Both the position numbers and the translations under genes were made by a program. Below are positions 1,020-35,181 of a stretch of 35,181 nt of DNA, in pieces. How positions within the stretch are numbered: position 1 is the first letter of the stretch; each line of letters starts with the position of its first letter. This DNA comes from a virus. Location of the stretch: positions 1 through 35,181 of the IMG/VR virus record IMGVR_UViG_3300020578_000237. One strand, 5' to 3'. Below the pieces are notes generated by a model. It worked only from the letters and a program-made list of their open reading frames with translations, searched no databases and had not been told where the DNA came from.

Positions 1020-1970
1020 TTAATTTATTAATCCTTCATAAGATATGCTTTCAGAAAAATTAGATAAATTATAATCTATATTTCTTCCAGAATTAGTATA
1101 TTTGATATTATTGTTAAATATACCTTTTAAATTAAAGTCAATTTTTTCTTCTTCTTTGTCGATATAAGCAGAGATATTTCTTTCATTTTTTGTAAAAAAG
1201 TTTTCTTTATTTGAAATAAAACTTTTTGTCTTGTTATGATTAAATAAAAGATCAGGTATTATTCCTTCGTCATAATACTTAACATTATTTTCTGTTTCTA
1301 ATATTTTATTGTCTATTGTTTCGTTAAATGTTCTTGTTACTGCAGATAAATTAGATTTTATTCCACGTAAAGTGTAATCACCATTTGTTCCATAATTTTT
1401 TATTTGTTTTATTACATCAAATACTTCTATTCTTCCACCCTGTCTATGTAATGCACTATTCGTAAATTCTATAGGATAAGATAAAATAGGGTCGTCTACA
1501 TTTTCACTTAGAATTTTTAATGCAGTATTAGAAGTATCTTCATCAAAAAAATATAATAAACTTTTTTCGTTAAAAAATTCTTCTCTATCAAAAAGATTTA
1601 TTTTATATGAATTAAAAATATTTAATCTTATTTTATTTTCATATTCTATTTCTTTTTTATTTCTAAAATTTGTTTCACTATTTATGCTAGCATCAATGCT
1701 TTTCGCTGAAAAGACTGGATATGTTCTACTGTTATATTTTCTATTAATAGTTCTTCCTGATTGTTGTTTACTATCAAAAAAACTTTTATTTTTAAAAAAT
1801 ATTTCATCAACATTTTCTATTCTTTGTATAAACTTATTTAATTTAGGATTTATATATACACTTCCAGTAAAAACAGCCTTTTTATTAGCTAAACTAGATG
1901 GTTTTAACTCTTCAGCAGGCAATATATTGTTTACTATTATTATATCGTCACATTGACATTCACAAATCAT
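1020..1970 (-). CDS. Hypothetical virion protein in baseplate operon
   Basis: A 316-residue protein starting MICECQCDD; the CECQC cluster at residues 3-7 is unusual for an otherwise Cys-poor phage protein and could be a metal or disulfide site, but that is a guess. The rest is polar, Asn/Lys/Asp/Ile-rich with no membrane segments and no domain I can name. Its ATG overlaps the stop of the preceding large baseplate gene by four bases, so translation is probably coupled. Position between a giant LamG-containing baseplate protein and another virion-like gene suggests a tail or baseplate component. Confidence 0.6.
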   Translation of the reverse strand: MICECQCDDIIIVNNILPAEELKPSSLANKKAVFTGSVYINPKLNKFIQRIENVDEIFFKNKSFFDSKQQSGRTINRKYNSRTYPVFSAKSIDASINSETNFRNKKEIEYENKIRLNIFNSYKINLFDREEFFNEKSLLYFFDEDTSNTALKILSENVDDPILSYPIEFTNSALHRQGGRIEVFDVIKQIKNYGTNGDYTLRGIKSNLSAVTRTFNETIDNKILETENNVKYYDEGIIPDLLFNHNKTKSFISNKENFFTKNERNISAYIDKEEEKIDFNLKGIFNNNIKYTNSGRNIDYNLSNFSESISYEGLIN

Positions 1971-4900: not shown

Positions 4901-5308
4901 ATTTAAATAGTTTATACTTTTAGGAAATACATTTTTTAAAATATGATTGCTATAACCATCTAAGTTATTTAAATAATTTTGATATTCAATATCTGGCTTA
5001 TCATATGGAAATTCATTTATTATTTTCTTAAAAGCATAGTTTGTTTTGTCTACTGCTGAATCAAAAAAAACATGATTTTCAAATTTAGAAAAATCTAAAT
5101 TAGTTAATTGTGAAGTTGAAAAAATGCCTTCATAATCGTCTTGACGTTTTAAATAAAAAGTTTCTGAATTTTCTGCGTTTGTTAAATTTTTTATTTCGCT
5201 GATTGTTCTCGAATATTTTTTTTCAACGTCAACATTTAGTATATTTTTTTTATTTATTTTTCTTACATATCTTTCAAATGAATTACTTAAACTCGTTTTA
5301 ATTGACAT
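1967..5308 (-). CDS. Giant baseplate protein with P2 gpI-like core and two LamG-like lectin folds
   Basis: 1113 residues. Residues about 132-325 have the layout of a LamG/concanavalin-A-like jelly roll (FSFDFWLYV near 171, FYIGYG near 284, GKIDEFKYFNKILTQEQI near 302-319). A second jelly roll lies at about 640-870 and ends GEVSNIRLWNKALSKREI. Between them, about 430-595, is a helical segment ending LKSKGTISSIRSTFNSFGI, which resembles the 'tail protein I' motif of P2-type baseplates (KSKGT..SI..L...FG). Size and place after a gp6-like gene match T4 gp7 (1032 residues), so a gp7-like wedge role is likely, with LamG domains as possible glycan-binding additions. The exact orthology is inference. 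It lies three bases after the preceding gene. Confidence 0.65.
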   Translation of the reverse strand: MSIKTSLSNSFERYVRKINKKNILNVDVEKKYSRTISEIKNLTNAENSETFYLKRQDDYEGIFSTSQLTNLDFSKFENHVFFDSAVDKTNYAFKKIINEFPYDKPDIEYQNYLNNLDGYSNHILKNVFPKSINYLNFKGNNYVKIEDITGVIFNDLDKKEIGTLDPKLNNFSFDFWLYVEDENVTANHIIFQKYDSINNEGFTCFINKEDEKVKANFLITSENELLISSFDIKTNVFCNVVINVFSQSFKRKISAFVNCIKVNVDTTGVINLKKFKSEFSKNPFYIGYGENHDEYEMEQFIGKIDEFKYFNKILTQEQIVDNFNKNIQTNDYLLLYLRFNEPKGTYTNNFICIDHSGKKLHGIIMAINSEITDEELLELRDNEGILPPLLHEKSSDNPVLFSTYPSILYELRKITVEAEKYDAINPNVIWNLFPQYIFAASADFDGINNIFMQNKDFTINKNKIDTKANTTFINLILIWARFFDQIKCYIDSMSEFLSLDYDSINKEEALGIILPIALKNIGFEFEEIFKNVTIDKLEGRNLQYFDVNDDKKIRQIQNTLWKRLLINSQDILKSKGTISSIRSTFNSFGIDVDKFIDIREYSALNIVNYNKQSTQLHKSYRTIDFGNIKYTNKDTLFGEDLLPTNKPLLYINNIDDCQINLGCCFSYEAFYRFNNFNKINFKSDQSLIRLSYIDDNEKYSDFINLVFNKKSEDFTGDLILKINNNLDNSFYDLKIENVDLFSGDLFYICIIKDKTNEETSKYKLIISNCCNASSIGIKSQEKEIYLTENINITNSYMFIGPTNLYEYDNTVEFQGEVSNIRLWNKALSKREIFLHKKDLQNVADENILEYKSVFKNIKQGLILNINLLEDLNNYNQSIFEKNLPLFNYILGDKINPYIYIYDSTEVSDVIKNTSAIILRQNIKVDNPSNFNKININSYKEQYYSIEEDNFNYYDLHTSKYLTSFNNENRLDIDFSMVKILNEDISKIIDIYSLYSKYLADSSNIYAYEYKILKNMRDIYFDTLNEKINFKPLLQVYKYFENITQNILFDIVPDKVNYSGFNFIVESHILERHKYEYKMSNSRIEGIDISDPEIYKKVYSNYNTFNRQYSRVIK

Positions 5309-5311
5309 AAT

Positions 5312-7297
5312 TTATACAAACCTGACTTTTTGATTTTTATCATCTATAATTATTTTTTCTTTATTTTCATCGTAAAAATAGAATACAAATCTTAGTATTT
5401 TATTTTTGTATATAGCTGAATTATAAAAACTAAACGTATAGCAGTCACCTAAATATAGAAGTTTGCTATCTTTTATTTGTTCGTCAGACTTAAATAACAA
5501 AGTATTATTAATATCATCATAAATATCGTAATAAACTTCACCTAAATTTTCACATTCTAGATCAAATTTATGTTTAGAAGCAGAATAATGTCTATTTTTA
5601 TCAAAAAACATAACCTTAAAAGAAGAAACACTATCATTAGCAGAGCATGTTAAAGAAGATGTAGATAATGAGCATCTTAAATTCATTAATCGATATTCTG
5701 TTTCTTTATCATGAATATAAAAAGTATAAACTTCTGAAAGTATGTCTATATACTCTGTTGTTTCAGCAACTATATCAAAAATTTTATATTTCCACAATAT
5801 GTTTATATCTAAACTTTGTTTATTTACCAGATTATTAAGTATTAAAGAATCAAATCTTGATATTAAAGTATCATTAATTTGAATCATTTTTAATCCTTTT
5901 ATTCTTTCACCTTTAAAATCATCAACATCTTCTGTCAGTTCATCTTCAAGTATATAGTTTTCTACTTCATTAAGTTCTTCATCTATATAATTAAAATATA
6001 CATCTGCTACTACTGTTATATTTTTATTTGGGTTAATAATTTGTGAATCTAAAAAGTCTGTTTGAATTCCATTTTTTATATTTTTAATATAAAAATATTC
6101 ATTATTATCAAAATATCTTTTAAGTTTTTTAGATGGAATATTTTTATATTGCAAACTTTCTTCATTTATTTTTATGATAAGCTTAGGAACAAATTTTTTA
6201 TTTGTTAAATGTCTGCTACCAAATCTTTTAACAAAATAAGTGTAATAATTATAAATATACTCGTCGTCAAACGATATTAAAAATCCTTTATTAGGAATAT
6301 ATGCATTTGTATTGTCTGATTTGTACTTAAAATAATTTTTAATATATTTTGTAATGTCAAAAACAGCATTTTGATCAGGTTCTGTAATAAAACATTCTGA
6401 AATATAACTTTCTTCATCTTCATCATTTATAAATGTATCGATACTGTCAGTTACAAACCCTTTGTTTTCCCATAAAATATTATTTTCATTTTGATTACTT
6501 AAAGTTTCAAAATTGCATATTCCAAAATCAGAAAAGTGTATTGTATCTTTACCAAATCCTTCATCAAATATTTTATTCATTGGCTTTAATACTAATTTAT
6601 AATTAAAAGGCTTTATATTTCCTGATGTAACGTCATGTAAAACTATTTCACATTTAAAATTATCTGTATTAAAAATACTTTTATCATAATCATAAACAAG
6701 CTTTTCAAATAAATCATCTATGTCAAATGAAACAAGAATATTTGAATTTTCTAAACTTGCAAATTCACTTATTTCAATATTACTTGTTTCATTTAAAATA
6801 AAAACATCACTGACAGTATAAGTTAAATGTTGAAGCACTATAATATTATTTACATTAATTGCATTTATATTTAATTTTAAATTACCAGAAGGACCGTTTT
6901 GTTCAACAGAATTTACTGAATTTATTGCTAATACAATAAACTCAATTAATTGATCTTGTGTATATTCACTATTTTCTAAGCCTAATCCTATATAAATAGA
7001 GTCACTGGAGTTATCTAGATTATTTCCTAATGTAAGTTCTGTGTTTTCGGTATTACTTACAAAAATAAAATTAACAGAGTTATTATTTGCATCTGTTATT
7101 GTAAAATTTTCAAGATCTTGTGGCGTTGATTCATTAGTAAATTTTAAAAAAGAAATTTTTTCTTTTTTGTTTTCATTAAATAATTTAAATAAATCTAAAG
7201 TTGCTGCTTTACCTACGTTTGAATAAATTCCATCGTTATAAGATGTTTTTCTATTATTTACGTATGTGTCTTTATTAGCTTCTTTTATTATTAACAT
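5312..7297 (-). CDS. Baseplate/virion protein with N-terminal DNRLRE-like domain
   Basis: 661 residues. The N-terminus (about 1-260) carries DTYVNNRKT, GKAATLDLFKL and ISFLKFT, followed by YKLVLKPMN and a KDTIHFSDFG segment. This is the pattern of DNRLRE-type beta-sandwich modules found in secreted and phage surface proteins (an 'adTyv...n.g....L.lg' start, 'llkFdl', then an 'eegtG' strand). The C-terminal half is beta-rich and unrecognised. The start codon abuts the stop of the gp6-like gene with no spacer, so the two are probably translationally coupled. It is likely a baseplate or fibre-attachment protein; the sandwich may bind glycans. Confidence 0.6.
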   Translation of the reverse strand: MLIIKEANKDTYVNNRKTSYNDGIYSNVGKAATLDLFKLFNENKKEKISFLKFTNESTPQDLENFTITDANNNSVNFIFVSNTENTELTLGNNLDNSSDSIYIGLGLENSEYTQDQLIEFIVLAINSVNSVEQNGPSGNLKLNINAINVNNIIVLQHLTYTVSDVFILNETSNIEISEFASLENSNILVSFDIDDLFEKLVYDYDKSIFNTDNFKCEIVLHDVTSGNIKPFNYKLVLKPMNKIFDEGFGKDTIHFSDFGICNFETLSNQNENNILWENKGFVTDSIDTFINDEDEESYISECFITEPDQNAVFDITKYIKNYFKYKSDNTNAYIPNKGFLISFDDEYIYNYYTYFVKRFGSRHLTNKKFVPKLIIKINEESLQYKNIPSKKLKRYFDNNEYFYIKNIKNGIQTDFLDSQIINPNKNITVVADVYFNYIDEELNEVENYILEDELTEDVDDFKGERIKGLKMIQINDTLISRFDSLILNNLVNKQSLDINILWKYKIFDIVAETTEYIDILSEVYTFYIHDKETEYRLMNLRCSLSTSSLTCSANDSVSSFKVMFFDKNRHYSASKHKFDLECENLGEVYYDIYDDINNTLLFKSDEQIKDSKLLYLGDCYTFSFYNSAIYKNKILRFVFYFYDENKEKIIIDDKNQKVRFV

Positions 7298-12538: not shown

Positions 12539-12824
12539 TATCTGTCTTTCTATTGCCGATATTTGTAGAATTATTTAATGAATCAGCAATAAATTCAACA
12601 GCTTGTCTTGCTTCTTTTAAATCACTTAAAACTTTTCTAACTTCTCTACTATCATAAAATAAAGGAATATTTAATATTTCATTTATAGACTCATATTTTT
12701 CATCTAATATGTCTAGACTGTCTTCTATAATGTCCTTAATATTTAAAATAATAATAGCAAATCTAAAACAAATAAAAGTAGAAATACAAAACAATAAAAA
12801 CATTAGTACTAATGCTATAATCAT
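12528..12824 (-). CDS. Small single-pass membrane protein with coiled-coil tail
   Basis: 98 residues. Residues 1-27 (MIIALVLMFLLFCISTFICF...) form one strongly hydrophobic helix, followed by an amphipathic, Glu/Lys/Asp-rich helical tail that likely forms a coiled coil. There is no cleavage site, so it is probably an N-terminally anchored inner-membrane protein. The ATG overlaps the stop of the upstream glycosyltransferase by four bases and the 3' end overlaps the sigma gene. Similar small anchored proteins next to gp55 occur in related phages, but their function is not known to me. Confidence 0.65.
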   Translation of the reverse strand: MIIALVLMFLLFCISTFICFRFAIIILNIKDIIEDSLDILDEKYESINEILNIPLFYDSREVRKVLSDLKEARQAVEFIADSLNNSTNIGNRKTDNDQ

Positions 12825-14008
12825 AATAAATCTAATTTCTTATATATATTATCTATAATATAATTTGAATTATATTTTTGTTTAATTTCTAAAGAAAGAT
12901 TATGAGATTGTTTTCTATAATGTTCTTTATTTTTAATAAAATCTTTTATTTTTAAGATTAAATCTTCTTTTACAAAATTTGACCATTTCATTTGCTTTGT
13001 AAACAAATCATTAATTTCAAAATTTGTTTCATCTAGTGTATAATCAACCTTAATAAATTTATTATTTAAAAATTCAGTATAAGCAGACCAATTATTTGCA
13101 ATAATAGGCAACTCGCATATTGCAGCCTCTAAAAAGCATAGACCGAATCCTTCTCCGCGAGAACCAGATATAAAACAATCTATTTTTTTAGATCTATATA
13201 AACTATTAAGCTCGCTAGTAGATAAATTACCATTAACTAAATAAATACTAATATTTTTCAGATTTAAATTTGTTTTTAGATTTTCATACAATTTATTTTT
13301 ATAAATAGAAGAAAAAGAACCAATATTTGTTTTTAAAACTATAGCAATACTATCTTCTTTAGTAAATGAATCATCTATTGCTTTTATTAAATTATAAGAA
13401 TTTTTTCTATCATTAGCAAAATTAACAGAAGTTATTTGTCCATTTATTAAAAAAACATTTTTTTCTGAAATTATATCTAGTTGTTTTAATTCTTCTATTT
13501 CTTTATTTTCAAACTCTTTACCATACCACTCAGGAATAACTTCAATTTTTGTTTCTATTTTTTTGTTTTTATTTTTAAAACCATTAATAATAGAATTTTT
13601 TGAGAATTCTGAAGGTGTTATTAATTTGTCACATAAATTTATTTTATCTAGCCAGCTTTCGTGACAAAAATCTGCTTCTATTCCTGCAGTCACGCCTATA
13701 TATTTAGAATATTTTTCGTGCTTAAAGAATTCATTTGGAACAGAAATATGTATACATATGTCAAAATTATTTACATTTTTGTTATTTAAATCAAAATTAA
13801 TATTTGATTTTTGAATTTTTTGTATAATATCTTCTTCATTTTCATCTTTTAGAATCCAAGAAGAATTTCCCCAAGGTAAAGATACACTAAATATATTAAT
13901 ATTATTGTTTTTATTTAACGAATCAATATATTTAAATATTTGTCTTGAATGATTTCCATAACCTGATTCTGATAGAAGCGGCCCTATAATTAGTATATTT
14001 CTAGTCAT
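12821..14008 (-). CDS. GT-B glycosyltransferase (GT4-like)
   Basis: 395 residues. The N-terminus reads NILIIGPLLSESGYGNHSRQIF, the glycine-rich acceptor loop of GT-B enzymes. The C-terminal domain has SRGEGFGLCFLEAAICELPIIANNWSAYTEFL at about 282-313, the EX7E nucleotide-sugar motif (E285 and E292 region) of GT4-like enzymes. It would transfer an activated sugar to an unknown acceptor, such as phage DNA bases, a virion protein or a host glycan. It overlaps the upstream glycosyltransferase by ATGA, so the pair is co-translated. Position upstream of gp55 and the tail genes favours late expression; DNA modification is an alternative seen in T4 relatives. Confidence 0.8.
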   Translation of the reverse strand: MTRNILIIGPLLSESGYGNHSRQIFKYIDSLNKNNNINIFSVSLPWGNSSWILKDENEEDIIQKIQKSNINFDLNNKNVNNFDICIHISVPNEFFKHEKYSKYIGVTAGIEADFCHESWLDKINLCDKLITPSEFSKNSIINGFKNKNKKIETKIEVIPEWYGKEFENKEIEELKQLDIISEKNVFLINGQITSVNFANDRKNSYNLIKAIDDSFTKEDSIAIVLKTNIGSFSSIYKNKLYENLKTNLNLKNISIYLVNGNLSTSELNSLYRSKKIDCFISGSRGEGFGLCFLEAAICELPIIANNWSAYTEFLNNKFIKVDYTLDETNFEINDLFTKQMKWSNFVKEDLILKIKDFIKNKEHYRKQSHNLSLEIKQKYNSNYIIDNIYKKLDLL

Positions 14009-15243
14009 ATCTTTAAAACCTCAAATCTTTTGTAATTCTTTTTCCAATTTTCAATAGTATAATTTAATGAATCACTCCATAAATTAATAGTTTTATCATA
14101 GTCAAACTCTTCATGAACATAATTCATTGCTCTATCGCCTATCTCCTTTATTTCTTGTTTATCTTTTTTATACATTTCAAAGAAAGCATCAGAAACTTTT
14201 TGAATTGAAACATAATCTTCATATAATATCGGTATTTCTTGATTTCCTACTATTGTTGTAAAGTCTATATCTAAACATATACCATTTATAGAATGGTCTT
14301 TATGATTTATAACTTGTCTTATAAGACCACCTGTTTTTGCTGCTATTATTGGATTACCACACATCATTGATTCAAGTGTTCCTAATCCAAATCCTTCATT
14401 ACAGCTAATATTAATAAAGCAGTCGCTTATATTATGCAATATGTTTATATTGTTTGCATCTACTTTTTCTACTGAAAAAAGAACTGTATCACTTGTTTTA
14501 AAGTAATTGTTTAATTCTATTAGATTGTATCCTTCTCTGTCTTTAGGATCTGTATGCATAATCAATACTGAATCGTTTTTTCCGTATAAAGATTTTACCT
14601 TTTCATCAAATAATTTCCATGCATGTAATAAATCTGCTGCTCTTTTTCTTTTACAGTTTCTATTAATCCAAAGAAATACAAATTTATCTTTATTTTTTCC
14701 TAAAATACTCTCTCTATTTTTGCTAATCGATTCTTCATCTAGCTTATAAAAAATACTTTTAGGAACAGCATGAGGTATAAAATTAGTCTTTTCAGGATAC
14801 ATTTCTTTACACATCATATAAGTTAAATAAGAATGACAATTTATTGCATCAATACTCTCAAGAAAACTTTTATTAAAATATGGAGTAGGTCTATTATCCC
14901 AAACGTGCCAATATAATATAGGACAAATTTGGTGTATTTCATCTTCCATTTCAAATATATGATTAAAAAATCTAGGATCTGTAAATAGTATTAATGCATC
15001 TGGTTTATATTCTATAAGTACTGATCTTATTAGTTTTCTATCACCAAATCCATTAATAGGTAAAATAATAAAATCGTCATTTACCTTTACTGTATTTAAA
15101 TTTTCATGTTTAATTGCTGCTCCTAATTGCAAAAATTTAAATTTTCCTGTTTTAATTAAACCAGCAATTAAATATTTTGTTTGAGTAGCAACTCCACTTG
15201 AATATAACGCATGATCACTTATTATTAATATTTTCTTTTTCAT
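14005..15243 (-). CDS. GT-B glycosyltransferase (GT4-like)
   Basis: 412 residues. The start MKKKILIISDHALYSSGVATQTKYLIAGL is a GT-B N-terminal Rossmann fold with its acceptor loop; FVFLWINRNCKRKRAADLLHAWKLF marks the entry of the second domain. NISCNEGFGLGTLESMMCGNPIIAAKTGG at about 282-310 is the classic GT4 nucleotide-sugar site with two glutamates. It is distinct in sequence from the downstream glycosyltransferase, so the two probably add different sugars or act in sequence. It lies ten bases after the nuclease gene and overlaps the next gene by four bases. The acceptor is unknown. Confidence 0.82.
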   Translation of the reverse strand: MKKKILIISDHALYSSGVATQTKYLIAGLIKTGKFKFLQLGAAIKHENLNTVKVNDDFIILPINGFGDRKLIRSVLIEYKPDALILFTDPRFFNHIFEMEDEIHQICPILYWHVWDNRPTPYFNKSFLESIDAINCHSYLTYMMCKEMYPEKTNFIPHAVPKSIFYKLDEESISKNRESILGKNKDKFVFLWINRNCKRKRAADLLHAWKLFDEKVKSLYGKNDSVLIMHTDPKDREGYNLIELNNYFKTSDTVLFSVEKVDANNINILHNISDCFINISCNEGFGLGTLESMMCGNPIIAAKTGGLIRQVINHKDHSINGICLDIDFTTIVGNQEIPILYEDYVSIQKVSDAFFEMYKKDKQEIKEIGDRAMNYVHEEFDYDKTINLWSDSLNYTIENWKKNYKRFEVLKI

Positions 15244-18215: not shown

Positions 18216-20249
18216 TTATCCACAATGATAAGTGCAACCAACAAAAGACATTAAATATGTATTTCCTTCATGAATTACTTCTCTTGTAATATAACGCGTA
18301 TCATTAATATCAAAATTACAATCTTGCGTTATTTTTGCAACAGTATAATTTCTTAATATATCATCATCTTGCTTCATTCCTAATCCAGGAATCTCACAAG
18401 TTGTTATATAATCACCATTTTCAAAATTACCATTTATATTACAAACCCAAACAGCACCTTCACCTAAAGAATTTATTATAGCTCTATTAATCCCATCTGT
18501 AGCTTCGAAAGTAGATACAAAATTTCCTACAGAATAAAATCTATTTCCATCAGAATTATCTTCTATTCCAGAATAAACACCAAATACTCTTTTATCATTT
18601 CTTTTATTAGACTTTGTTACTATAGGTAAAGACTCATTTATATTAGGTTTTTCTACCAACACATCAGATATATTACAATAATCACCACTTGATATTACTA
18701 TCATTCCTTCTTCTATAATTTCTTCTAATTTTTTACATCTATGCTGGCCTGTAAAATTTATATCGTTTATATTAGTATTATGTGAAATATATCCACCATT
18801 CGATGTTCCGTTATATTTAAAATATAAATTTTTTATATGGTTATATATGTCCCAATAGTCTATATTATTTAATTCTTCTAATCTAATTCCTCCAGCACTT
18901 CCAGCCGTTGTGCCTACTGCAGTACTCTTAATATGTAAAGTTGCAGCTGGTGTAAATTTATTTATTCCTGTATATGTCATTCCATTTGTTTGTGATTTTA
19001 TAAAAATTTTATTATAAGGTAAATTTATATTAGAATTAGTTATTGCATTTCCTCCAATTATATTTATTCCAGTATTAGATCTTATAGTTAAATTATTATC
19101 ATAGCTATTTAAATCTGTTCCTATACTAGAAGTTGTAGATGCAATTATGCCATTGTTTAAATAAAAATTTGCAACTGTTCCTGTTGAATAATGTCTTATA
19201 TTTAAATAAGTATCTTCATTTATTAAAGCTTCGGTACCTTTACTGATAGATGAAGTACTTAATATTCTAAAATCTTTATCTTCAAATAATATAAAATTAT
19301 AATCTTCTGTTGTAAATTCAACAAAAGAAGAAGAATTGCTTAATTGTAAACCAACATTAGATCCAAAAGCGCCAGTTGTGATAATTTCTACAGTTGTTGC
19401 AGGATTTCTTAGCACGTCTTTTTGTATTCTTAAGCTAGATGAAGTTCCTAAAGTAGTTAATATTGAATTACTGCCTGAAAGTGAGGTGATTGATTTTTGA
19501 AAATTACCTATTGAAAAATCTATTTTATCGTGAAAAATACTTTTGTTAAGTAAAAGAAAATTTGATCCGCTTGACAGCAAACTTATTGCACCGCTTGCTG
19601 ATATAGTAAGATCAGAATTTTCGTTACTTACTATGCTATTTATTATTAATGTTTCAGAAGTAGTATTTCCTGCTTGTAGCACATCATCTATAGTTGGAGT
19701 CTGAACATTTAATTCTAATATATTTGCTACTTCATCTTTAAAAGATTGGTTTGCAGCTAATGCTAATGCTATTAATGCATTATCAGCATCTAAACCATCA
19801 TTTCCTGCCGCTCCTTGAGGTCCTGTAGCACCTGTAGCGCCTGTAGCGCCTGCCTCTCCTTGAGGTCCTGTAGCTCCTGTAGCGCCTGTAGCGCCTGTAG
19901 CGCCTGTAGCGCCTGTAGCGCCTGCCGCTCCTTGAGGTCCTGTAGCGCCTGGCGCTCCTTGAGGTCCTGTAGCACCTGTAGCACCTTGTGGGCCTTTTGA
20001 ATATCCTGCGTTTATTTCTGTATTATCTGACAGAGTTATAATTAGATTGCCATTATTATTTATTGAAGCATCTGTTACATATAAAGGATTTAAAATTAGA
20101 GGTTGACCATTTTCATCTAATAATCCTGCAGAATTTACTTTTATTTGATTTGCTTTAATATTATAAGCGTTTACTTCGTGCCATTTTTTTGTTTCTCTTC
20201 CAATACCACCTTCACCATCAGCGCGTGGTACTAAATATTTAGTTGACAT
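18216..20249 (-). CDS. Collagen-like tail fibre with C-terminal chaperone/autocleavage-type domain
   Basis: 677 residues. Residues 1-40 ([28 protein letters not shown]) form a typical fibre anchoring head. Residues about 86-154 are 23 Gly-X-Y triplets (mostly GAT and GPQ), predicting a collagen-like triple helix. A beta-rich shaft follows to about 490. The end, from about 498 ([12 protein letters not shown], then [44 protein letters not shown]), matches the intramolecular chaperone/peptidase G2-like domain that trims itself from trimeric phage fibres. It probably binds the host surface. Preceded by TATAAAAA and GAGGA. Confidence 0.75.
19788..19994 (-). repeat. Collagen-type triplet repeat, 9-bp DNA unit
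   Basis: On the plus strand the DNA reads as near-perfect copies of the 9-mer gcctgtagc (minus strand GCTACAGGC, encoding Gly-Ala-Thr), with longer units where ccttgaggt (encoding Gly-Pro-Gln) is inserted. The longest uninterrupted run, around 19870-19925, repeats the 9-mer about six times. It is much more GC-rich than its surroundings and prone to slippage, which would lengthen or shorten the fibre in whole Gly-X-Y triplets without a frameshift. Confidence 0.85.
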
Positions 20250-21400: not shown

Positions 21401-22708
21401 TTATAAAAGTTTAGCTGCTATATTTGCCAATTCTGATCTATAACCTTTTTCAAAATTAACATGTGAAGTTAATTCTTCATTTTTCATTTTTTCTATTACT
21501 ATTGTTAATCCGTTTGAAAATTTATCAACATATTGTAAATCTATTTGGTCTGTGTCGCCAATTAATATTATTTTTGAGTTCTTACCCGTTCTTGTTATAA
21601 CAGTTTTTAATTCATGTATAGTAGCATTTTGTGATTCATCTACTATTATTATTGCATCATTAAAACTTCTTCCTCTAATATAACTTAAGGGAGCAATGTC
21701 TATTGTTCCTTTTTCCATTAATAGGTCAAAATAAGTTAAATCACCGAACTGATTTCTAAAATTGTCTACTATAGGTGCCAACCATGGAGCCATTTTTTCA
21801 TTTATATCGCCTGGAAGAAATCCTATATCTTTTCCTACAGTTTGAATAGGTCTTGTAAATATAATTCTCTTATGCGACTTTTTCTCAATAAATTTTAATG
21901 CACACATTAATGCAATAAATGTTTTACCGCTTCCTGGAACACCTGTCATTGTTATTAATGGTATATCTTCATACATTAAAGAATATAAAGCAAATATTTG
22001 TTCTTTATTTTTTGGTTCTATTCCGCATTTTTTATATATTTCATCTTTACTTGGTAAAAGATTTAAACAACCTTTTTTATAAATACATAATGCAGATTGA
22101 CCTCCGCTGTTTTTTAATACTATAAACTCATTTTCATTTAGATTTCCGCTATAATATTCTACATATTTTTTTGAATATAATTCGTTTAAAATACCAATTT
22201 CATCATGTATTTCACTATAACCTTTATATAAATTATCTTCTTTTATAAATTTATAATCTTCATAATAATCAAATGCTTCTATATCTAAAGCATCGCATTT
22301 TACTCTAAGATTTATATCTTTTGTAATTAATCTAACAATACTTTCAGGATATTTATCTTTTAATTTTTTTACTGAAGATAAGATCATATTGTCATTTGAA
22401 TCATTATTTAATTTAAGAAATTTTATATTTTCATCAAATTCAGACCAAACATAAAGAAGTATATCTTGCTCTTGGAAATAAATACCTGATGATAGCGAAC
22501 CTTTTTGTCTTGCTTCATCAAGAAATCTATTTATAAATCTTGCATTTTCGCCTATTATTCCTTGTTTATCTTTAAACTTATCAAGTTCTTCTAATACAAT
22601 TATAGGAATATAAACATCGTTTCCTACAAAATTCAATAATGAATTTTTATCATATAACAAAACGCTAGTATCTATTAGTAATTTTTTTCTTTTTTTTGTT
22701 TGTGTCAT
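21401..22708 (-). CDS. phoH: PIN-PhoH fusion ATPase/RNase (PhoH2-type)
   Basis: 435 residues with two domains. The N-terminal PIN domain (about 8-150) has LIDTSVLL (Asp13), LEELDKFK (Glu40/Glu41) and TKDINLRVKC (Asp131), the acidic residues of PIN ribonucleases. The C-terminal PhoH P-loop domain has TGVPGSGKT (residues 255-263, Walker A) and IIIVDESQNA (353-362, Walker B), with IIFTRP and LIGDTDQIDL typical of PhoH. PhoH2-type proteins unwind and cleave RNA; phoH is a common auxiliary gene of marine phages. It heads a minus-strand operon of small virion genes and is divergent from the mini sigma-like gene. Confidence 0.88.
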   Translation of the reverse strand: MTQTKKRKKLLIDTSVLLYDKNSLLNFVGNDVYIPIIVLEELDKFKDKQGIIGENARFINRFLDEARQKGSLSSGIYFQEQDILLYVWSEFDENIKFLKLNNDSNDNMILSSVKKLKDKYPESIVRLITKDINLRVKCDALDIEAFDYYEDYKFIKEDNLYKGYSEIHDEIGILNELYSKKYVEYYSGNLNENEFIVLKNSGGQSALCIYKKGCLNLLPSKDEIYKKCGIEPKNKEQIFALYSLMYEDIPLITMTGVPGSGKTFIALMCALKFIEKKSHKRIIFTRPIQTVGKDIGFLPGDINEKMAPWLAPIVDNFRNQFGDLTYFDLLMEKGTIDIAPLSYIRGRSFNDAIIIVDESQNATIHELKTVITRTGKNSKIILIGDTDQIDLQYVDKFSNGLTIVIEKMKNEELTSHVNFEKGYRSELANIAAKLL

Positions 22709-23253: not shown

Positions 23254-23481
23254 TTATACGTGTATTATATTTTGCTTATTTTTTGTGTTAATATCTAAAT
23301 TGTTATTTTTTTCATTATTTTCAATAACTGAATTTATTTCTTTCATTAAAACTATATCTTCTAGTTCAAGCGTTAAAAGTTTTATTAATTGTAATGTTTC
23401 AAATTCATTTATTCCAAAGTTTTTAATTTCATTAATTATTTCTCTGCATTTTTTTATTGATTTTAATTCTTTTTCATTCAT
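23254..23481 (-). CDS. Conserved small helical hypothetical protein
   Basis: 75 residues. REIINEIKNFGINEFETLQLIKLLTLELEDIVLMKEI reads as two amphipathic helices, a pattern I have seen in uncharacterised proteins of marine T4-like phages. The last 25 residues are Asn/Lys-rich and probably disordered. The ATG overlaps the stop of the upstream 165-residue gene by four bases. No functional motif. Confidence 0.6.
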   Translation of the reverse strand: MNEKELKSIKKCREIINEIKNFGINEFETLQLIKLLTLELEDIVLMKEINSVIENNEKNNNLDINTKNKQNIIHV

Positions 23482-23975
23482 AGCATTAAATCTTTCTGAT
23501 ATATTTCTTTTTTTATTTTAAATTTTTTATCTTTTAATTCAATATATTTTACTGATACGTTATTTTCTATTTCTTGACTTTCTATTACTATTATTTGATC
23601 TTCTATATTATTCTCAAATACATAATTAGTTAATTCCCATATTGAAACATCACAATCTGCAGAATATAAAAGATTAACAATATCAGTCAAGCCTTCTTGC
23701 TCTAACGTTATTCTTATGTCATCTTTTGTTATAACATATGTTTTATATCCTTCTTTTCCCCACATTATATTACTTTTGTTTATATCAAATACCTTATGAA
23801 TAATATCACAATTATTGCATGAAACATATTTATGTTTTAATGTATTGCTTTCTTCGTCTATTAGACTAAATACAGGAAATTTATGATAAATAATTTTTGT
23901 ATTTTTTTTAAAAATTGGTAATACACATTGACATTCAATTAAATGTCTTATATAATTTTTATTTTTTATTGACAT
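23478..23975 (-). CDS. Conserved hypothetical protein with zinc-ribbon-like cysteines
   Basis: 165 residues. HLIECQC (Cys15, Cys17) and SCNNC (Cys53, Cys56) form a probable zinc ribbon enclosing a beta-rich segment (YHKFPVFSLIDEESN). The rest, DDIRITLEQEGLTDIVNLLYSADCDVSIWELTNYVFENN then IIVIESQEI, is alternating helix and strand. I recall close patterns (the 'HliECqC.LP' start) in marine T4-like phages, always uncharacterised. Two bases separate it from the chaperonin-like gene upstream, and it overlaps the next gene, so it is in the helicase-Nudix-chaperonin operon. Confidence 0.65.
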   Translation of the reverse strand: MSIKNKNYIRHLIECQCVLPIFKKNTKIIYHKFPVFSLIDEESNTLKHKYVSCNNCDIIHKVFDINKSNIMWGKEGYKTYVITKDDIRITLEQEGLTDIVNLLYSADCDVSIWELTNYVFENNIEDQIIVIESQEIENNVSVKYIELKDKKFKIKKEIYQKDLML

Positions 23976-23977
23976 TT

Positions 23978-25192
23978 TTATACCTTAATCACAAAACTTA
24001 TTTTATTTATATTTTCATATAAACTTTTACCTAAATTATTAGTAGATATTTCTACATTATAAGGTACTATATCATTGTTTATAGTATCATTTATAAGGCC
24101 GTATTTACAAATATTTTTATAACTTAATAAAAGATCTTTTAGACTCTGAAGAAGTGTTGTATTAGTATTTGATACTTTTACAATTACTTTTTTTGATGAT
24201 AATCTTCTTTTTCTTTCTAATAAGTATTTACATAATTCTATGTCATCTTTTTTTTCTTTTAACATAGAATCAATATTATTAATTAAATTTTTGTTTTTAT
24301 TTTGAAATAAAATTTTATTTGAGAATAATTTTATATCATTTATACTTTTTGATTTTTGAATTCCATCTTTTAGTAAACTTGTTTGTGTTTCTATATTAAT
24401 AACACTTAATTCTAGACTTTCTGCTAAATCATTAAATTTAAATGGATCATTATTCTGAAATGAGTCTGTATAAATATATATTAATATTTTATTGTATAAC
24501 ATAATCTTTTTTATATTTTCAATAGCATTATCAGATACTCCTCTGCAAAATATTACTAATGATTGTTTATTTAACACACACTCTTCTATTAAGTTTACTA
24601 TTTCAGATTCTCTTTCTATAAATGTATCTGAAATAACAAATCTTGCATTTTTATTTTTATATTTATTTTCTTCTGAAAATAGAATCTTAGATAATTTAGG
24701 GTGAATACTAATATTAAATTCACAATTATCTATCCTTTCTATAACAGTTTCATTTTTTTTGTTTTCCTCACATATTATCGTAGAATCAGGTCCTCCTAAT
24801 TCAATAGCATTTAATATAATTTCACCTGTTAATTTATCGCTGTTTTTAAAAATAAATTCTTTTAATAAAAACATATTAGGTATTATTTTATTGTTCAATG
24901 CGCTTAATTCTGCAGTATTATTTTTAAACATATGAACTATTTTTTTTGCCAAATAATAACTTGCGCCTGGAGAATTCATTTCTGCAGTTTTAAATGAATT
25001 TATAAAAATATTTTTTAGACTGCAGTTTTCAAGTATTTTGCTTGCGATAAGAAAATAAAAAAACATAAAATTAGATTTGTAAACTTCTTTTTCTAGACGA
25101 ATTACTCTAATTTTATGTTTTTCGAATTTTTTAATAAATTTATCTAATAACAGTATTGTTTGAATTACATTTTCATTATGATTTTTATACAT
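23978..25192 (-). CDS. Divergent GroEL-like chaperonin, probably ATPase-defective
   Basis: 404 residues (GroEL about 545). Segments align by eye in GroEL order. FKNSDKLTGEIILNAIELGG and STIICEEN (115-143) match 'SANSDE.VG.LIA.AM.KVG....ITVED'. ARFVISDTFIERESEIVNLIEEC then SLVIFCRGVSDNAIENI (183-227) match the apical 'L..D.KI....LP.LE......PL.I.AEDVEGEAL'. KKDDIELCKYLLERKRRLSS then VIVKV (314-340) match 'D...L.ERLAKL.GGVAVIKVG'. LKDLLLSYKNICKYGLI (351-367) matches 'VEDAL.ATRAAVEEGVV', keeping the Asp equivalent to GroEL D398. The GDGTTT phosphate loop is replaced by NSPGASY and the late GGG loop is absent. It overlaps the Nudix gene by eight bases. Confidence 0.55.
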   Translation of the reverse strand: MYKNHNENVIQTILLLDKFIKKFEKHKIRVIRLEKEVYKSNFMFFYFLIASKILENCSLKNIFINSFKTAEMNSPGASYYLAKKIVHMFKNNTAELSALNNKIIPNMFLLKEFIFKNSDKLTGEIILNAIELGGPDSTIICEENKKNETVIERIDNCEFNISIHPKLSKILFSEENKYKNKNARFVISDTFIERESEIVNLIEECVLNKQSLVIFCRGVSDNAIENIKKIMLYNKILIYIYTDSFQNNDPFKFNDLAESLELSVINIETQTSLLKDGIQKSKSINDIKLFSNKILFQNKNKNLINNIDSMLKEKKDDIELCKYLLERKRRLSSKKVIVKVSNTNTTLLQSLKDLLLSYKNICKYGLINDTINNDIVPYNVEISTNNLGKSLYENINKISFVIKV

Positions 25193-25610
25193 TTCTTTTC
25201 TTTAATATATTATTTGCCCATATTATAGATCCTCTTAGATAATAAAGTAAATCTTTTTCTGCAGATTTTTCTGAAAGTAGTAATATTTTTTCGTGTTCTA
25301 ACTTTCCTGTCTTATCATTTCTTTTTATTTTTAGTGTTTTAAAGACACTTTCGTCTATTACACACAAAAATAAGTAAATACTTTTACCTAAAATAGGAGT
25401 ATAGACTCCACAATCCGTAATTAATATAACATCTTCTCTTAAAAGATTTATTTCTTCAAAAGCTTCTCTAAATGCGCAATCAATAATAGATTCCTTTTTT
25501 TCAATTTTTCCCTTTGGCAAATCAAGTTTGCCGTTTTTCTTTAAAAGGCAAACGTATTTATATTTTTTATCATCAGTTTTAACAGCTAAAATTATACCTG
25601 CGCCTGCCAT
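25185..25610 (-). CDS. Nudix hydrolase
   Basis: 141 residues. The Nudix box is at residues 34-56: Gly34, Glu40, Arg48-Glu49, Glu52-Glu53, reading GKIEKKESIIDCAFREAFEE. The glycine usual in the EExG part is Asn55, a mild departure. LKKNGKLDLPKGKIEK before it is the typical strand and loop. It hydrolyses a nucleoside diphosphate linked to another moiety; likely substrates in phages are ADP-ribose, dinucleotide polyphosphates, damaged dNTPs or RNA caps, and the sequence does not tell which. A strong AAAAGGAAAAAAA ribosome site precedes the ATG, and the end overlaps the chaperonin-like gene. Confidence 0.85.
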   Translation of the reverse strand: MAGAGIILAVKTDDKKYKYVCLLKKNGKLDLPKGKIEKKESIIDCAFREAFEEINLLREDVILITDCGVYTPILGKSIYLFLCVIDESVFKTLKIKRNDKTGKLEHEKILLLSEKSAEKDLLYYLRGSIIWANNILKKRNV

Positions 25611-25639: not shown

Positions 25640-27280
25640 TTAATATTTTATGTAACAGTCAAAAAAACCTTCAGGAAAATAATCATTACACCTTGATTTT
25701 ATTTTATCCCAATCATTATCAAGTATATAAGTCATAGCACTATCAGTTTCAGATCTTATGCTTCTTCCAACACTCTGAACTATTGTTCTAATTGTTTGAG
25801 TATTATACCACCAATCCCACTTATTCATTTTCTTTATTGTAACCTTGTCACCAAGATAAGGATAAGGCATTTTACAAAGTATCTGAAATTTACTTAGATC
25901 ACCTTTTAAATCTACGCCTTCTGCCATTGAAGGTGTAACTAAAACTGTATTATTTTTACTTTTTACATGTTTTTCTAATTGATCATCTCTATTATTTCCA
26001 TACGCTAATAAAAGTCTGCTATCCTTTATATTGCTACAAATATATTCAGCTATTTTTGTATTATGAGTATGAATAATACCTTTTTCGTTTTTGTGAATAT
26101 CTAACAATTCTTTTATTGTTTTTAACATATTAGGTAAAGTATTATCTATAGATTTAGATCCCATACTGCCACAATTATAAAATATAATAGGTCTATTTTC
26201 TGCTAAGAAAGGTGATTTTTCTTTAACACAAATAGTTTTATCCCAATCAATTCCAATAGTTTCTGAAAATCCTTTATGATTTATAATTGTTGCTGACATA
26301 AAAATAATATAATCTGCATATTTGAATAAATAATCATTTGCATATTTCGATATGTCAATAGGCTTAAATATAAATTTTCTAAAACTCTTTTCGCCTTTTT
26401 CTAAATAGAAAACCCAATTATCTTTGTCATAAATACTGATAAATTGTGTTATTTTTAATTCATGTGCCTTTAACATGTCTAATTGCGAAGATATTGACTT
26501 ATAGTCATCTAGCTTTTCACTTATACCTAATTTTAGTATTTGTGCCTCAGTAAATGTTATTTTTTCTCTTAACTTTTTAAGATATTCTTCTTTAATAAAC
26601 TTAAAAACCTGAAGCTGTGTTTTAATATTTTCGTCTATTTTTATTTTTAATATTTTTTCTGAAAAGTATTCAGATACTGATATTTCAATGAACCTTGTTA
26701 ATTCATTTTCTAAATTATGAGCTTCATCAATTATTAGAACCTTTTTGCTGGGTAATGAATTTTTAGTTTTATTGAAATTCTTCTCAGTAAGAAAATAACT
26801 GAAATTTGTAATTCCAAGACTTTTTTCTACAAACTCTTGTTTTTTCTTTTTATAAACACAATCAAATTTACAGCTATTAAATTTATCATCAGCAGAATCA
26901 GCTCTTATATCTGTTGATACTTCTTTACAAGATAATTTATTATTAGATCTACTACACATATAGTTAGAAGAACTATATAGTGATACTAAACCATTATTAG
27001 AAAAATCTTTCTCATATTGATCCTGAAGGATCTTTTGTGTTGTTAGAAAATAAGCACCATAGTTAAATGAACTATCAGTGTCATCTTTACTATTTTCTAG
27101 TAATGTTTTAGCTAACGTAAAACCTATTGCAGATTTACCAACACCAGTTCCACACTCAATTATAGCATATTTCTTTCCTACATTAAATCCACTTAAAACT
27201 TTATTTATTACATTAGTCTGTTGAACTCTTGGAGAATTCATTGGAAAATTATGTAACCACTTAATATTTTCAGCTTCCAT
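25640..27280 (-). CDS. DinG/XPD-like superfamily 2 helicase with Fe-S cluster
   Basis: 546 residues. Walker A GTGVGKS at 44-50 and DEAH box at 185-188 (IIDEAHNLE). Between them are four cysteines (109, 118, 137, 141) with the XPD/DinG Fe-S spacing. The C-terminal half has FMSATI, GIIHTHNT, VTPSMAEGVDLKGD and IVQSVGRSIRSETDSA, helicase motifs III-VI. Such enzymes unwind DNA 5'-3' and resolve R-loops. It leads a minus-strand operon with the Nudix and chaperonin-like genes and is preceded by TATAAATA 17 nt before the ATG and by AGGAAG. Confidence 0.87.
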   Translation of the reverse strand: MEAENIKWLHNFPMNSPRVQQTNVINKVLSGFNVGKKYAIIECGTGVGKSAIGFTLAKTLLENSKDDTDSSFNYGAYFLTTQKILQDQYEKDFSNNGLVSLYSSSNYMCSRSNNKLSCKEVSTDIRADSADDKFNSCKFDCVYKKKKQEFVEKSLGITNFSYFLTEKNFNKTKNSLPSKKVLIIDEAHNLENELTRFIEISVSEYFSEKILKIKIDENIKTQLQVFKFIKEEYLKKLREKITFTEAQILKLGISEKLDDYKSISSQLDMLKAHELKITQFISIYDKDNWVFYLEKGEKSFRKFIFKPIDISKYANDYLFKYADYIIFMSATIINHKGFSETIGIDWDKTICVKEKSPFLAENRPIIFYNCGSMGSKSIDNTLPNMLKTIKELLDIHKNEKGIIHTHNTKIAEYICSNIKDSRLLLAYGNNRDDQLEKHVKSKNNTVLVTPSMAEGVDLKGDLSKFQILCKMPYPYLGDKVTIKKMNKWDWWYNTQTIRTIVQSVGRSIRSETDSAMTYILDNDWDKIKSRCNDYFPEGFFDCYIKY

Positions 27281-31961: not shown

Positions 31962-34900
31962 TCAAAACAATAAAGCCTTAACATACTTTCTTATAAAACC
32001 ATCAGCTAATAAAAATTGCTTAGCTTCATTTAATTCTTTAATAAAATGTTCTTTATTACTATTGCAATATTTATTAATAATCTCTTCAACGTAATCAAAA
32101 AATTCAGAACTACAATCTTTATTTAATGATTCGATAAGAGACTCAAAAAAATATGTAAATATACTTGCATGTTGTTCTTCTCTTAATTTAATAAGAAAAA
32201 AATTATCTAAAATAGCATCATTGTCCTTTTTATCGTAATATTCAAAATTATTATTTAAATTATGTAATAAATAATCACCTAAAGCATATTTTGAAACTCC
32301 AGCTTCTCCATATAATTTCATTAAAATTAATATATTTTCTAAATTAATTGAATTTATATTACGTCTAATATAATTATATACTAAACTATCAAAACTAATA
32401 AAATCAAAATATCTTCTAATATTTTTACTAATGTTAACAATTACTTCATCATCTAATAAGTTTTTTTCATAATTTTTAAAAATATTAAAATAAAATGAAA
32501 CAAACTCTCTAGTAGATAAAAACTCTCTTTTATTAATTAATGAATTATTTGTTAAAACAATATAATCAATCAATGCTGAATGTAATATTAAATTATTAGT
32601 GCTACCATTTAATCTAAAATTAAACACACCACCATCACATGTAAAAATTTTAGAAAATAATTCTTTTAAAGTATGAACATCTATGAAATCAATAACTTCA
32701 ATCAAAATATTAATATCTTGAGAAGAACTATTTAATTTTGAAAAAATACTATATATCAAATAAATAAAATATTCAGTGCCTTCATTAAAATCAATATAAT
32801 ATAAAAAATATTCATTCAAAAAATCTTTTAATATTTCATTATATTTTTTACTAGCTAATAAATCTAATATTTTATCATAATCTATTAATTTTTTTATAAC
32901 TTCTTTACCAAAAAGAGCATTTGCTCTAATACCAACATAATCACTAAATAATAAAAATTGTTCAATATCATAATTTCTAGTCAATAAAGTTGTAACTTTA
33001 TATACAGTATTATCATCTATTTCTTCAATAAGCTTATAATAATTATTTAAATTAATTTTTCCAAAATTAATTTTTCTTATTTGTTTAAACGGTCTTCCTT
33101 TTATTTTAAATAAAGCAATATCAATTAACCTATAAATAAAATTATTAGAATACTGATAAATATTTGATATATCTATTTCATTATTAAAAAACTTCTTTTT
33201 AAAATTAATATAAGACTGTTGTGTTATTCCTAAAAATTCATATTTGCTTACATCAATATTACATGTAAAAAAATAGTCTTCATTAATTGGAAAATCACAC
33301 TCCTTAAACATAATATCAATATAAAATATTTTTTTGTCCAAACTAAACTCAGCTGTACTATCATACATTTCAGGACATTTTTCAAAAATAATAGAATTAA
33401 AATAATCAATATTATTAAAATAATATCTATTAATTAAACTATATCCATTAGTTACTTTTTCCTTAAAAAAATTAATCATCTCAAAAAAATTTGATTTATT
33501 TTTTATATCAAATATTGTTTTAAACAATCTAGTATTTTTTATTATATCAAAATACTCGTCACTTAATAATAATTTTTCAAAATTGATTTTGTCACCAATA
33601 TCATAATCTTCTTTATTTAAATCAAATTCTGAATCGTTTGCAGTCAATACGTTTGTTAATATATTATACAAATGATTATTATTGTTGCTACCATTTAAAC
33701 TATTTCTTAAAATTATTTTAAAAGTATCTTCTTCAAACGGTACATGCTTTAAATACTTTAAATTCAAAAGACTATAAGAATACTTAAAATCAGAAGCTTT
33801 TCTCTTAGCTTTTTCAATTATTTTATTTATTACAGAAATAGCAATATCACTGTCTATTTTTTTAAAAAATTCTTCAAATGTAATATAATCTTCATATAAA
33901 CCAATATTAGACACATACTCACTCATAGCCTCGACAAATAAACCTTCCTTTCTGTCAAAACTTTTAAATATACGATAAATGTAATCTACATAATCAAAAT
34001 ACTGACTACGAGATTTTAACTGTTGACTTTCTATAAAATAATTTATACTTTCTATATCATTTAAATCTATCAATCCTGATAAACTATCTAGAAACTCTGT
34101 CTCTGTTATATTTGCATTAATTTGATTATTATCAATAGAATACTGAGTTAATTTTCTTTGTATCTCACTAATATCCGCTTCAGACAATATTCCAAGAAGC
34201 TTTAATTCATCCATATGATGATTTAAATAATCACATGTTTCATCTGCAATTATTTCACATTCGTCATTTACACCAGATTGAATTTTTTTAACTTTTAAGC
34301 TTATTAAATAATTTACATTATTAGTATCTACATTTTTTGAATGCAATAAACATAAAAACATGTTTTCATTGTACTCCTTCCAAGTAGTTATCTTTTGAGT
34401 ACACCAAGAAACATTTGCATTAAAACTCTTTATACCACACTTAAAATCATACCCGGTAAAAGGCAAAACAACAATAACTTCACTATTCTCAAATACTTTA
34501 AAATAATTTACATTTTCAACAAACTGCTTCTTCACATTATACTTTTTATAAAAATCTTTATAAAAATTAATTCTATGAAATATAAAATTAAAATCAAAAT
34601 TACCTAAATCAATCAACCTCTTCTCGTCAGACTCAGAAATATTATAAAAATTCTTAATATATAAATCTCCAGCAAGTATACAGTCAACAGCTGAAACTTC
34701 GTCTCTTGTCTCCAAATACTTTATTATACTATCATACAACGGCAATACGCTTCTCAACTCAATAAATGTCCCGTCAATATTTCTATGTTTTCTACACTGC
34801 TGAATTATTAAATCCTCTTTTTTCTTTCTATCAATATCTAAACCACTACGCCTTATAACATGCTGACACTTTAATATCTCAACAATTACATTCTTCTCCT

Positions 34901-35181
34901 TTTTCTCTAACTTACGAGTCAAATCCCACTGCTTTTCAAACTCATCTCTATCAAAAACTATCTCTCTTTTTAAAAAATCATCAATATCTAACCCTTTCTT
35001 CCTCTTAATATCAATCTCCTTCTTTCTCTTAACCTCCATCTTCTCAATATCATCTAAATACAATAAATAATAATCACGCTTACGAACATCAGAATCACCT
35101 TCTAAAAAACTACTTTCTAAATTTTTTAAAAACTCTTCCTTGCTACTAACACCCGCCTCTAACTTCTTAATATCTCTAAAA
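31962..35181 (-). CDS. Giant helical phage protein, N-terminus beyond window
   Basis: The frame is open to the right edge, so the gene starts outside; at least 1072 residues are visible. A TTG at 35063 lies in this frame but in-frame codons continue upstream of it (FRDIKKLEAGVSSKEEF...), so it need not be the start. Around 34380-34410 the protein reads GIKSFNANVSWCTQKI then WKEYNENMFLCLLHSK, a 'WCT...Y...LY' element I recall from uncharacterised proteins of large phages. The remaining 800 residues are helical repeats rich in Ile, Asn, Phe and Tyr, with no other motif. The N-terminal 150 visible residues use AAG/GAG codons far more than the rest. Function unknown; internal virion or very large accessory protein possible. 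Confidence 0.65.
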   Translation of the reverse strand, partial: FRDIKKLEAGVSSKEEFLKNLESSFLEGDSDVRKRDYYLLYLDDIEKMEVKRKKEIDIKRKKGLDIDDFLKREIVFDRDEFEKQWDLTRKLEKKEKNVIVEILKCQHVIRRSGLDIDRKKKEDLIIQQCRKHRNIDGTFIELRSVLPLYDSIIKYLETRDEVSAVDCILAGDLYIKNFYNISESDEKRLIDLGNFDFNFIFHRINFYKDFYKKYNVKKQFVENVNYFKVFENSEVIVVLPFTGYDFKCGIKSFNANVSWCTQKITTWKEYNENMFLCLLHSKNVDTNNVNYLISLKVKKIQSGVNDECEIIADETCDYLNHHMDELKLLGILSEADISEIQRKLTQYSIDNNQINANITETEFLDSLSGLIDLNDIESINYFIESQQLKSRSQYFDYVDYIYRIFKSFDRKEGLFVEAMSEYVSNIGLYEDYITFEEFFKKIDSDIAISVINKIIEKAKRKASDFKYSYSLLNLKYLKHVPFEEDTFKIILRNSLNGSNNNNHLYNILTNVLTANDSEFDLNKEDYDIGDKINFEKLLLSDEYFDIIKNTRLFKTIFDIKNKSNFFEMINFFKEKVTNGYSLINRYYFNNIDYFNSIIFEKCPEMYDSTAEFSLDKKIFYIDIMFKECDFPINEDYFFTCNIDVSKYEFLGITQQSYINFKKKFFNNEIDISNIYQYSNNFIYRLIDIALFKIKGRPFKQIRKINFGKINLNNYYKLIEEIDDNTVYKVTTLLTRNYDIEQFLLFSDYVGIRANALFGKEVIKKLIDYDKILDLLASKKYNEILKDFLNEYFLYYIDFNEGTEYFIYLIYSIFSKLNSSSQDINILIEVIDFIDVHTLKELFSKIFTCDGGVFNFRLNGSTNNLILHSALIDYIVLTNNSLINKREFLSTREFVSFYFNIFKNYEKNLLDDEVIVNISKNIRRYFDFISFDSLVYNYIRRNINSINLENILILMKLYGEAGVSKYALGDYLLHNLNNNFEYYDKKDNDAILDNFFLIKLREEQHASIFTYFFESLIESLNKDCSSEFFDYVEEIINKYCNSNKEHFIKELNEAKQFLLADGFIRKYVKALLF

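Follow-up and report, generated by a model that had tools for sequence, protein, structure and literature searches.

The window, that is, the full 35,181-base IMG/VR record analysed here (24.6% G+C), encodes on its minus strand a 404-aa GroEL-like protein without ATP site (23978..25192, ATG start), referred to as pseudo-GroEL in the following. Sequence profiles, structure prediction and conservation all support its identity as a large-phage relative of GroEL that is degenerate, ATPase-dead and dominated by the apical domain. In our best explanation, which has about an even chance of being correct, it is a conserved pseudo-chaperonin in one lineage of uncultivated large myophages, serving as an ATP-independent apical-domain binding protein beside a phage GroEL. 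Assignment of the window to the genome of a large myophage is based on its genes for a baseplate wedge, a collagen-like tail fibre, PhoH, an exonuclease and a helicase.

The 404-aa protein is a true relative of GroEL. Among PHROGs, phrog_5725 ('chaperonin groEL') was matched over residues 113-342 with E=2.8e-11, and phmmer retrieved GroELs from the PDB at E about 1e-3, while the threshold of PF00118 was not reached in the Pfam search. With a 12-sequence family profile, chaperonins rank top in the PDB (best E=3.2e-6). Profile-profile alignment of the 24-member family described below with canonical GroELs (hhalign) likewise recovers the chaperonin family at a probability of 94.9 and E=4.7e-8, and the blocks follow each other as intermediate, apical and second intermediate segments, the order that the original prediction had proposed when assigning this ORF to GroEL. 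For a more distant clade, the corresponding values are 99 and E=2e-18 against canonical GroELs and 98.8 and E=5e-17 against the 24-member family. A profile including the distant members, applied to six-frame translations of whole contigs of 211-284 kb, matched only pseudo-GroEL and true GroEL.

The AlphaFold2 model of the window protein, calculated with a 12-sequence alignment, reached a pLDDT of 84.8 and a pTM of 0.71. Its best Foldseek match in the PDB has E=3.2e-18, all 50 matches listed are GroEL/Hsp60, and the search against viral models returned phage GroELs. VIA-align superposes 395 residues of the whole chain (model 4-404 against GroEL 9-523) with Z about 20 and an rmsd near 8 Å, a value to be expected if domain orientations differ. 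The apical domain alone (residues ~151-334, 24191..24742, minus strand) aligns over 173 residues at 3.0 Å with Z 18.3 (5cdk) and with Z 17.4 to 1la1. Hence, the model (pLDDT 85 in round figures) has the apical-domain fold of GroEL, the absence of which would have spoken against the assignment. The model of a distant member (L014; pLDDT 72) is also a GroEL (Foldseek E=7.9e-23), its underlying alignment including rows of the window family.

In direct searches with the window protein, neither GenBank phages (tblastn, E up to 10) nor IMG/VR viral contigs (single-protein scan) gave a relative. Orthologues were reached via the neighboring helicase, by which 24 related contig stretches were fetched; 13 of these carry a pseudo-GroEL orthologue (28-35% identity, E down to 1e-54) and, where covered, show the gene order helicase, NUDIX, pseudo-GroEL, g165 and PhoH. 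A later profile search yielded 27 loci, partly on the same contigs. After removal of identical proteins, the family comprises 24 members, the window protein and 23 further orthologues from IMG/VR, all of them intact ORFs of 385-404 aa. In a sister clade with helicases 44-48% identical (L014, L018, L020, L022 and L023), pseudo-GroEL versions of 382-480 aa are found at the corresponding place. The longest of them matches PHROG groEL at E about 1e-19, and a 466-aa member retrieved only ordinary phage GroELs from GenBank phages by tblastn. Scanning contigs of GTDB r220 (one genome per species) with the family profile revealed no member, thus, no bacterial source of the family is seen. Neither GroEL nor pseudo-GroEL was detectable in the huge phages LR745206, LR756502, LR756504, LR756511, phage G and Tunturi_5, although the helicase or the SpoVR gene is present in them. 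In a midpoint-rooted tree carrying a long-branch warning, the pseudo-GroELs are located on long branches apart from the GroELs of the same lineage, which cluster together (support 99/98); the tree does not place the family.

Close pairs (identity of at least 0.71) show dN/dS values of 0.05-0.13 (Nei-Gojobori), indicating a functional gene, and no frameshifts were found among the orthologues. Between G001 and G002, pseudo-GroEL evolves faster than its neighbor genes, with an identity of 65% compared to 86% for the helicase, 78% for PhoH and 79% for g165; GroEL is 91% identical between these two contigs.

Residues were compared in E. coli GroEL numbering across the 24 orthologues, and the roles of GroEL residues in nucleotide site, groove and inter-ring contacts are those of the GroEL literature. 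The nucleotide site is lost in 24/24 sequences, affecting GPKG 32-35, D52, D87/T89/T90 of GDGTT, GGG 414-416 and D495. At the position of GDGTT (GroEL 86-90), the window protein has PGASY (residues 75-79, 24956..24970, minus strand) and most of the family PG[SGAC]S[YFL], with G76 being invariant and S78 present in 23 of the 24 orthologues. The original prediction of a degenerate, ATPase-dead protein had pointed to the missing GDGTT, the missing late equatorial glycine loop and a deficit of about 140 residues (404 versus 548 aa). All three observations are borne out, the first two by absence in every orthologue. It had also listed an equivalent of the catalytic Asp398 as retained, which does not extend to the family: D353, aligned with GroEL D398 (24134..24136, minus strand), is an Asp in 1/24 orthologues, namely in the window only, hence this position does not count as a retained catalytic residue and the Asp in the window is a chance match. 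An ordinary active chaperonin whose ATP site has diverged, or a decaying pseudogene, could likewise have retained the fold. However, every nucleotide-contact motif is absent in 24/24 sequences, and a pseudogene or frameshift is ruled out by the intact ORFs and the dN/dS values of 0.05-0.13, which leaves this pair of readings with next to no probability.

Besides the nucleotide site, about 80 C-terminal equatorial residues (GroEL ~417-496) are deleted in all 24 sequences, as is the N-terminal strand (GroEL 1-8). The deleted segment includes the inter-ring contact residues E434, R452, E461, S463 and V464, and the A109 region is likewise missing from the family. What is kept of the equatorial domain includes a stem-loop in shortened form (E30-31, E37-38) and, at the end of the chain, the last helix and strand (GroEL ~497-522), hence the complete equatorial domain of GroEL is not found in this family. 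Pseudo-GroEL as modelled consists of apical and intermediate domains on a minimal equatorial core. By means of this core, it might insert into a phage or host GroEL ring and create some ATP-silent positions, just as rings of plastid Cpn60 alpha and beta mix subunits. The kept stem-loop, helix and strand, the extent of the VIA-align superposition and the full-length GroEL co-encoded in relatives could accommodate such a mixed ring. Nevertheless, the loss of about 80 equatorial residues plus the N-terminal strand in the whole family does not favor it; furthermore, the N- and C-terminal equatorial segments hold only 5 of the 29 near-invariant residues, and evolutionary rates of pseudo-GroEL and GroEL are unmatched (65% versus 91%). 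Altogether, we consider mixed rings unlikely.

Conservation is concentrated in the apical domain: of the 29 positions shared by 23 or all 24 sequences, 23 lie there, corroborating the predicted apical-dominated character. On the client-binding side, aromatic and hydrophobic positions are kept: Y199 is replaced by F in 23/24 sequences, position 203 is Y or F in 22/24, F204 is found in 24/24, and L237 is hydrophobic in 24/24. Helix I, on the other hand, is recharged. V263 of this helix, which belongs to the client- and GroES-binding groove of GroEL, is replaced by K or R in 24/24 (K228 in the window protein, 24509..24511, minus strand), and V264 is mostly polar. The combination of kept aromatic positions with a recharged helix I suggests a changed binding specificity, and the latter would make a specific partner likelier than plain hydrophobic binding of clients or GroES. 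Two further motifs are family-specific, with canonical GroEL having neither of them: R217-G218 (24539..24544, minus strand) in place of GroEL E252-D253, being RG in 24/24, and the invariant D249-P250-F251 (24440..24448, minus strand; 24/24). At the RG position, R is found in three and G in four of the five distant members, thus, this feature is shared between the clades.

An alternative use of this apical domain would be that of a natural minichaperone, a stand-alone ATP-independent holdase solubilising one abundant phage protein without any contact to GroEL. Isolated GroEL apical fragments fold independently (1la1 and 1kid are among the structural matches), the aromatic binding ridge is retained, and the phage EL chaperonin prevents aggregation without encapsulation or GroES (PMC7185714). 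However, Lys or Arg in place of V263 and the mostly polar position 264 lower classical hydrophobic client binding, and the retained equatorial core is left unexplained; we rate this alternative as rather improbable. In the preferred explanation, pseudo-GroEL would likewise act without ATP via its apical domain by binding a phage protein. It might hold a particular client and then pass it on to the phage's own GroEL, or dock on the latter as adaptor or regulatory subunit.

New is the finding that each relative over 200 kb pairs pseudo-GroEL with a full-length, ATP-motif-complete GroEL. The latter is encoded in G001 (239.5 kb), G002 (211 kb) and G004 (284 kb), that is, in 3/3 relatives of this size, at E values of about 1e-58 (PF00118) and about 1e-130 (PHROG), and keeps GP[RM]G, KDG, GDG[TS]T, DDA, GGG and D495. 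In one profile run, exactly two chaperonin-type matches were obtained in each of these contigs, pseudo-GroEL and GroEL. This co-occurrence rests on relatives, the record of the window itself being a 35-kb fragment. The two genes lie about 157, 73 and 160 kb apart in G001, G002 and G004, respectively, and at such distances there is no operon link. Together with the differing rates of evolution of the two proteins, this counts against the preferred explanation. The 5'-3' exonuclease gene located beside GroEL is, except for a second paralogue, absent from the shorter contigs, and the missing GroEL there fits their incompleteness. In G017 and G018, GroEL is found 10-20 kb from the helicase, both contigs breaking off before the expected position of pseudo-GroEL can be assessed. 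At L055:438-4119, the GroEL locus consists of the 5'-3' exonuclease, a 72-aa ORF, GroEL, a 66-aa ORF and a sigma-70 factor, an order that G001 and G002 share and that G004 shows with little change. For the 72-aa ORF, no Pfam match was obtained, and GroES was not detected in ten related contigs.

As the most complete relatives co-encode a normal GroEL, the shortened copy is probably a retained and repurposed binding partner and not a decaying gene. With an ATP-competent GroEL co-encoded in relatives, a role as partner gains in plausibility, and the first candidate would be the GroEL of the phage rather than that of the host. Going one step further, a two-chaperonin virus can tentatively be proposed, in which an ATP-driven GroEL is assisted by the silent copy as dedicated adaptor or regulatory subunit, a possibility that we rate as somewhat doubtful. 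If true, the phage evolved a chaperonin division of labour otherwise known only from cells. Another possibility would be an anti-host factor that joins or caps the GroEL of the host and thereby poisons or blocks it. In principle, an ATP-dead subunit could be dominant-negative, but the GroEL of the relatives could then be poisoned too, and large phages usually need chaperonin capacity; we hold this activity to be very improbable.

In the window, pseudo-GroEL sits inside a run of minus-strand genes. Its start overlaps by 8 bases with a NUDIX hydrolase gene (25185..25610), which is preceded by a gene for a DinG/XPD-type superfamily 2 helicase (25640..27280). Two bases past the pseudo-GroEL stop, g165 starts (23478..23975), which encodes a 165-aa protein and is a neighbor in both clades, and a PIN-PhoH protein gene is located at 21401..22708; helicase and PIN-PhoH are kept as neighbors in relatives. 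From its conserved Cys/His pattern (CxC...CNNC, more fully CxC...H...CNNC..H), the g165 product is probably zinc-binding; significant matches to PDB or Pfam were not obtained. Considering this neighborhood, pseudo-GroEL might also be a repurposed scaffold without chaperone role, with a single binding partner, perhaps the g165 product or an operon protein acting in nucleotide metabolism. Scaffold use has a precedent in the chaperonin-like domain of PIKfyve/Fab1, the operon order with NUDIX, g165, PhoH and helicase is conserved in the core clade, g165 is still nearby in the distant clade, and the invariant RG and DPF motifs are absent from canonical GroEL. Phage synteny, however, often persists without functional coupling, and we deem a scaffold improbable, albeit the function of pseudo-GroEL could be unrelated to protein folding.

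To our knowledge, the known phage chaperonins are ATP-driven rings. The GroELs of phages VP4B, Miami, phiRU, JM-2012, Calle_2, Vibrio 1.255.O and AH12 keep GDG[TS]T and the equivalents of D52 and D398. Pseudo-GroEL shares with GroEL/Cpn60 the overall fold, the apical and intermediate domains with their order along the chain, and the C-terminal helix and strand, but differs by the missing nucleotide site, a chain shorter by about 140 residues, the loss of the N-terminal strand and ~417-496, and the recharged helix I. Having no nucleotide site, it stands outside the functional group I chaperonins. With EL gp146, OBP gp246 and AR9 gp228 it has in common that a chaperonin is encoded by a large phage and that no GroES family gene was found in the contigs either, and the phage EL chaperonin is among its structural matches (Z 17.7). 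The EL and AR9 chaperonins, however, are full-length proteins that form rings and depend on ATP (PMC7185714, PMC9598537), whereas pseudo-GroEL has no ATP site, is about 140 residues short and, in relatives, accompanies a second, full-length GroEL.

Divergent paralogues beside the original GroEL, with diverged client-binding regions, are known as chlamydial GroEL2 and GroEL3 (PMC1892554), which are bacterial chromosomal genes and are likened to pseudo-GroEL by description only. In BBS6/MKKS, BBS10, BBS12 and the CCT-like domain of PIKfyve, the ATP hydrolysis motif is degraded or absent, or only the apical part is present (PMC2846930); these are eukaryotic relatives of group II chaperonins, whereas pseudo-GroEL is group I-like and viral. 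Two features of an ATPase-dead paralogue beside an active chaperonin are found here, the co-encoded GroEL (3/3 relatives over 200 kb) and purifying selection. By analogy, the working mode of pseudo-GroEL is probably closest to that of ATP-degraded paralogues beside an active chaperonin, such as chlamydial GroEL2/3 and the BBS proteins. A viral family lacking the ATP engine but keeping the client-binding domain under strong selection represents a natural test of an apical domain without ATPase cycle and a route to understanding how phages specialise the folding of very large particles. Moreover, the distant clade (382-480 aa) and the core clade (385-404 aa) form a chaperonin reduction series. 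A degenerate GroEL in phages had not been described before in the literature searched. The survey of Marine et al. 2017, which reportedly deals with virioplankton chaperonins and could hold related sequences, lay outside this search.

Some neighboring genes deserve mention in their own right. In the distant clade, a triad of DUF444 (YhbH/YeaH), SpoVR and PrkA (YeaG) genes directly precedes pseudo-GroEL (L014:12718-17223, also in L018 and L022), so that a phage here carries a stress operon of bacteria. SpoVR is also encoded in G005, G016 and G020, and SpoVR or PrkA homologues are likewise encoded by some phages of Thermus and by uncultured huge ones. Beside the helicase at L019:11640-13294, ORFs resembling a TilS-type ATP pyrophosphatase and an IMPDH/GMP reductase were recognized by eye. 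In the window, very large ORFs (1072, 1113 and 661 aa) without PHROG match are located at 31962-35180 and 1967-7297, and the collagen-like repeats of the tail-fibre gene at 18216-20249. Two glycosyltransferase genes (phrog_2170) lie side by side at 12821-15243 and are probably tandem duplicates, and a 167-aa protein encoded at 29619-30122 matches phrog_858, labeled as starvation-inducible and Dps-type, as well as Pfam DUF5856 (E=2.9e-13).
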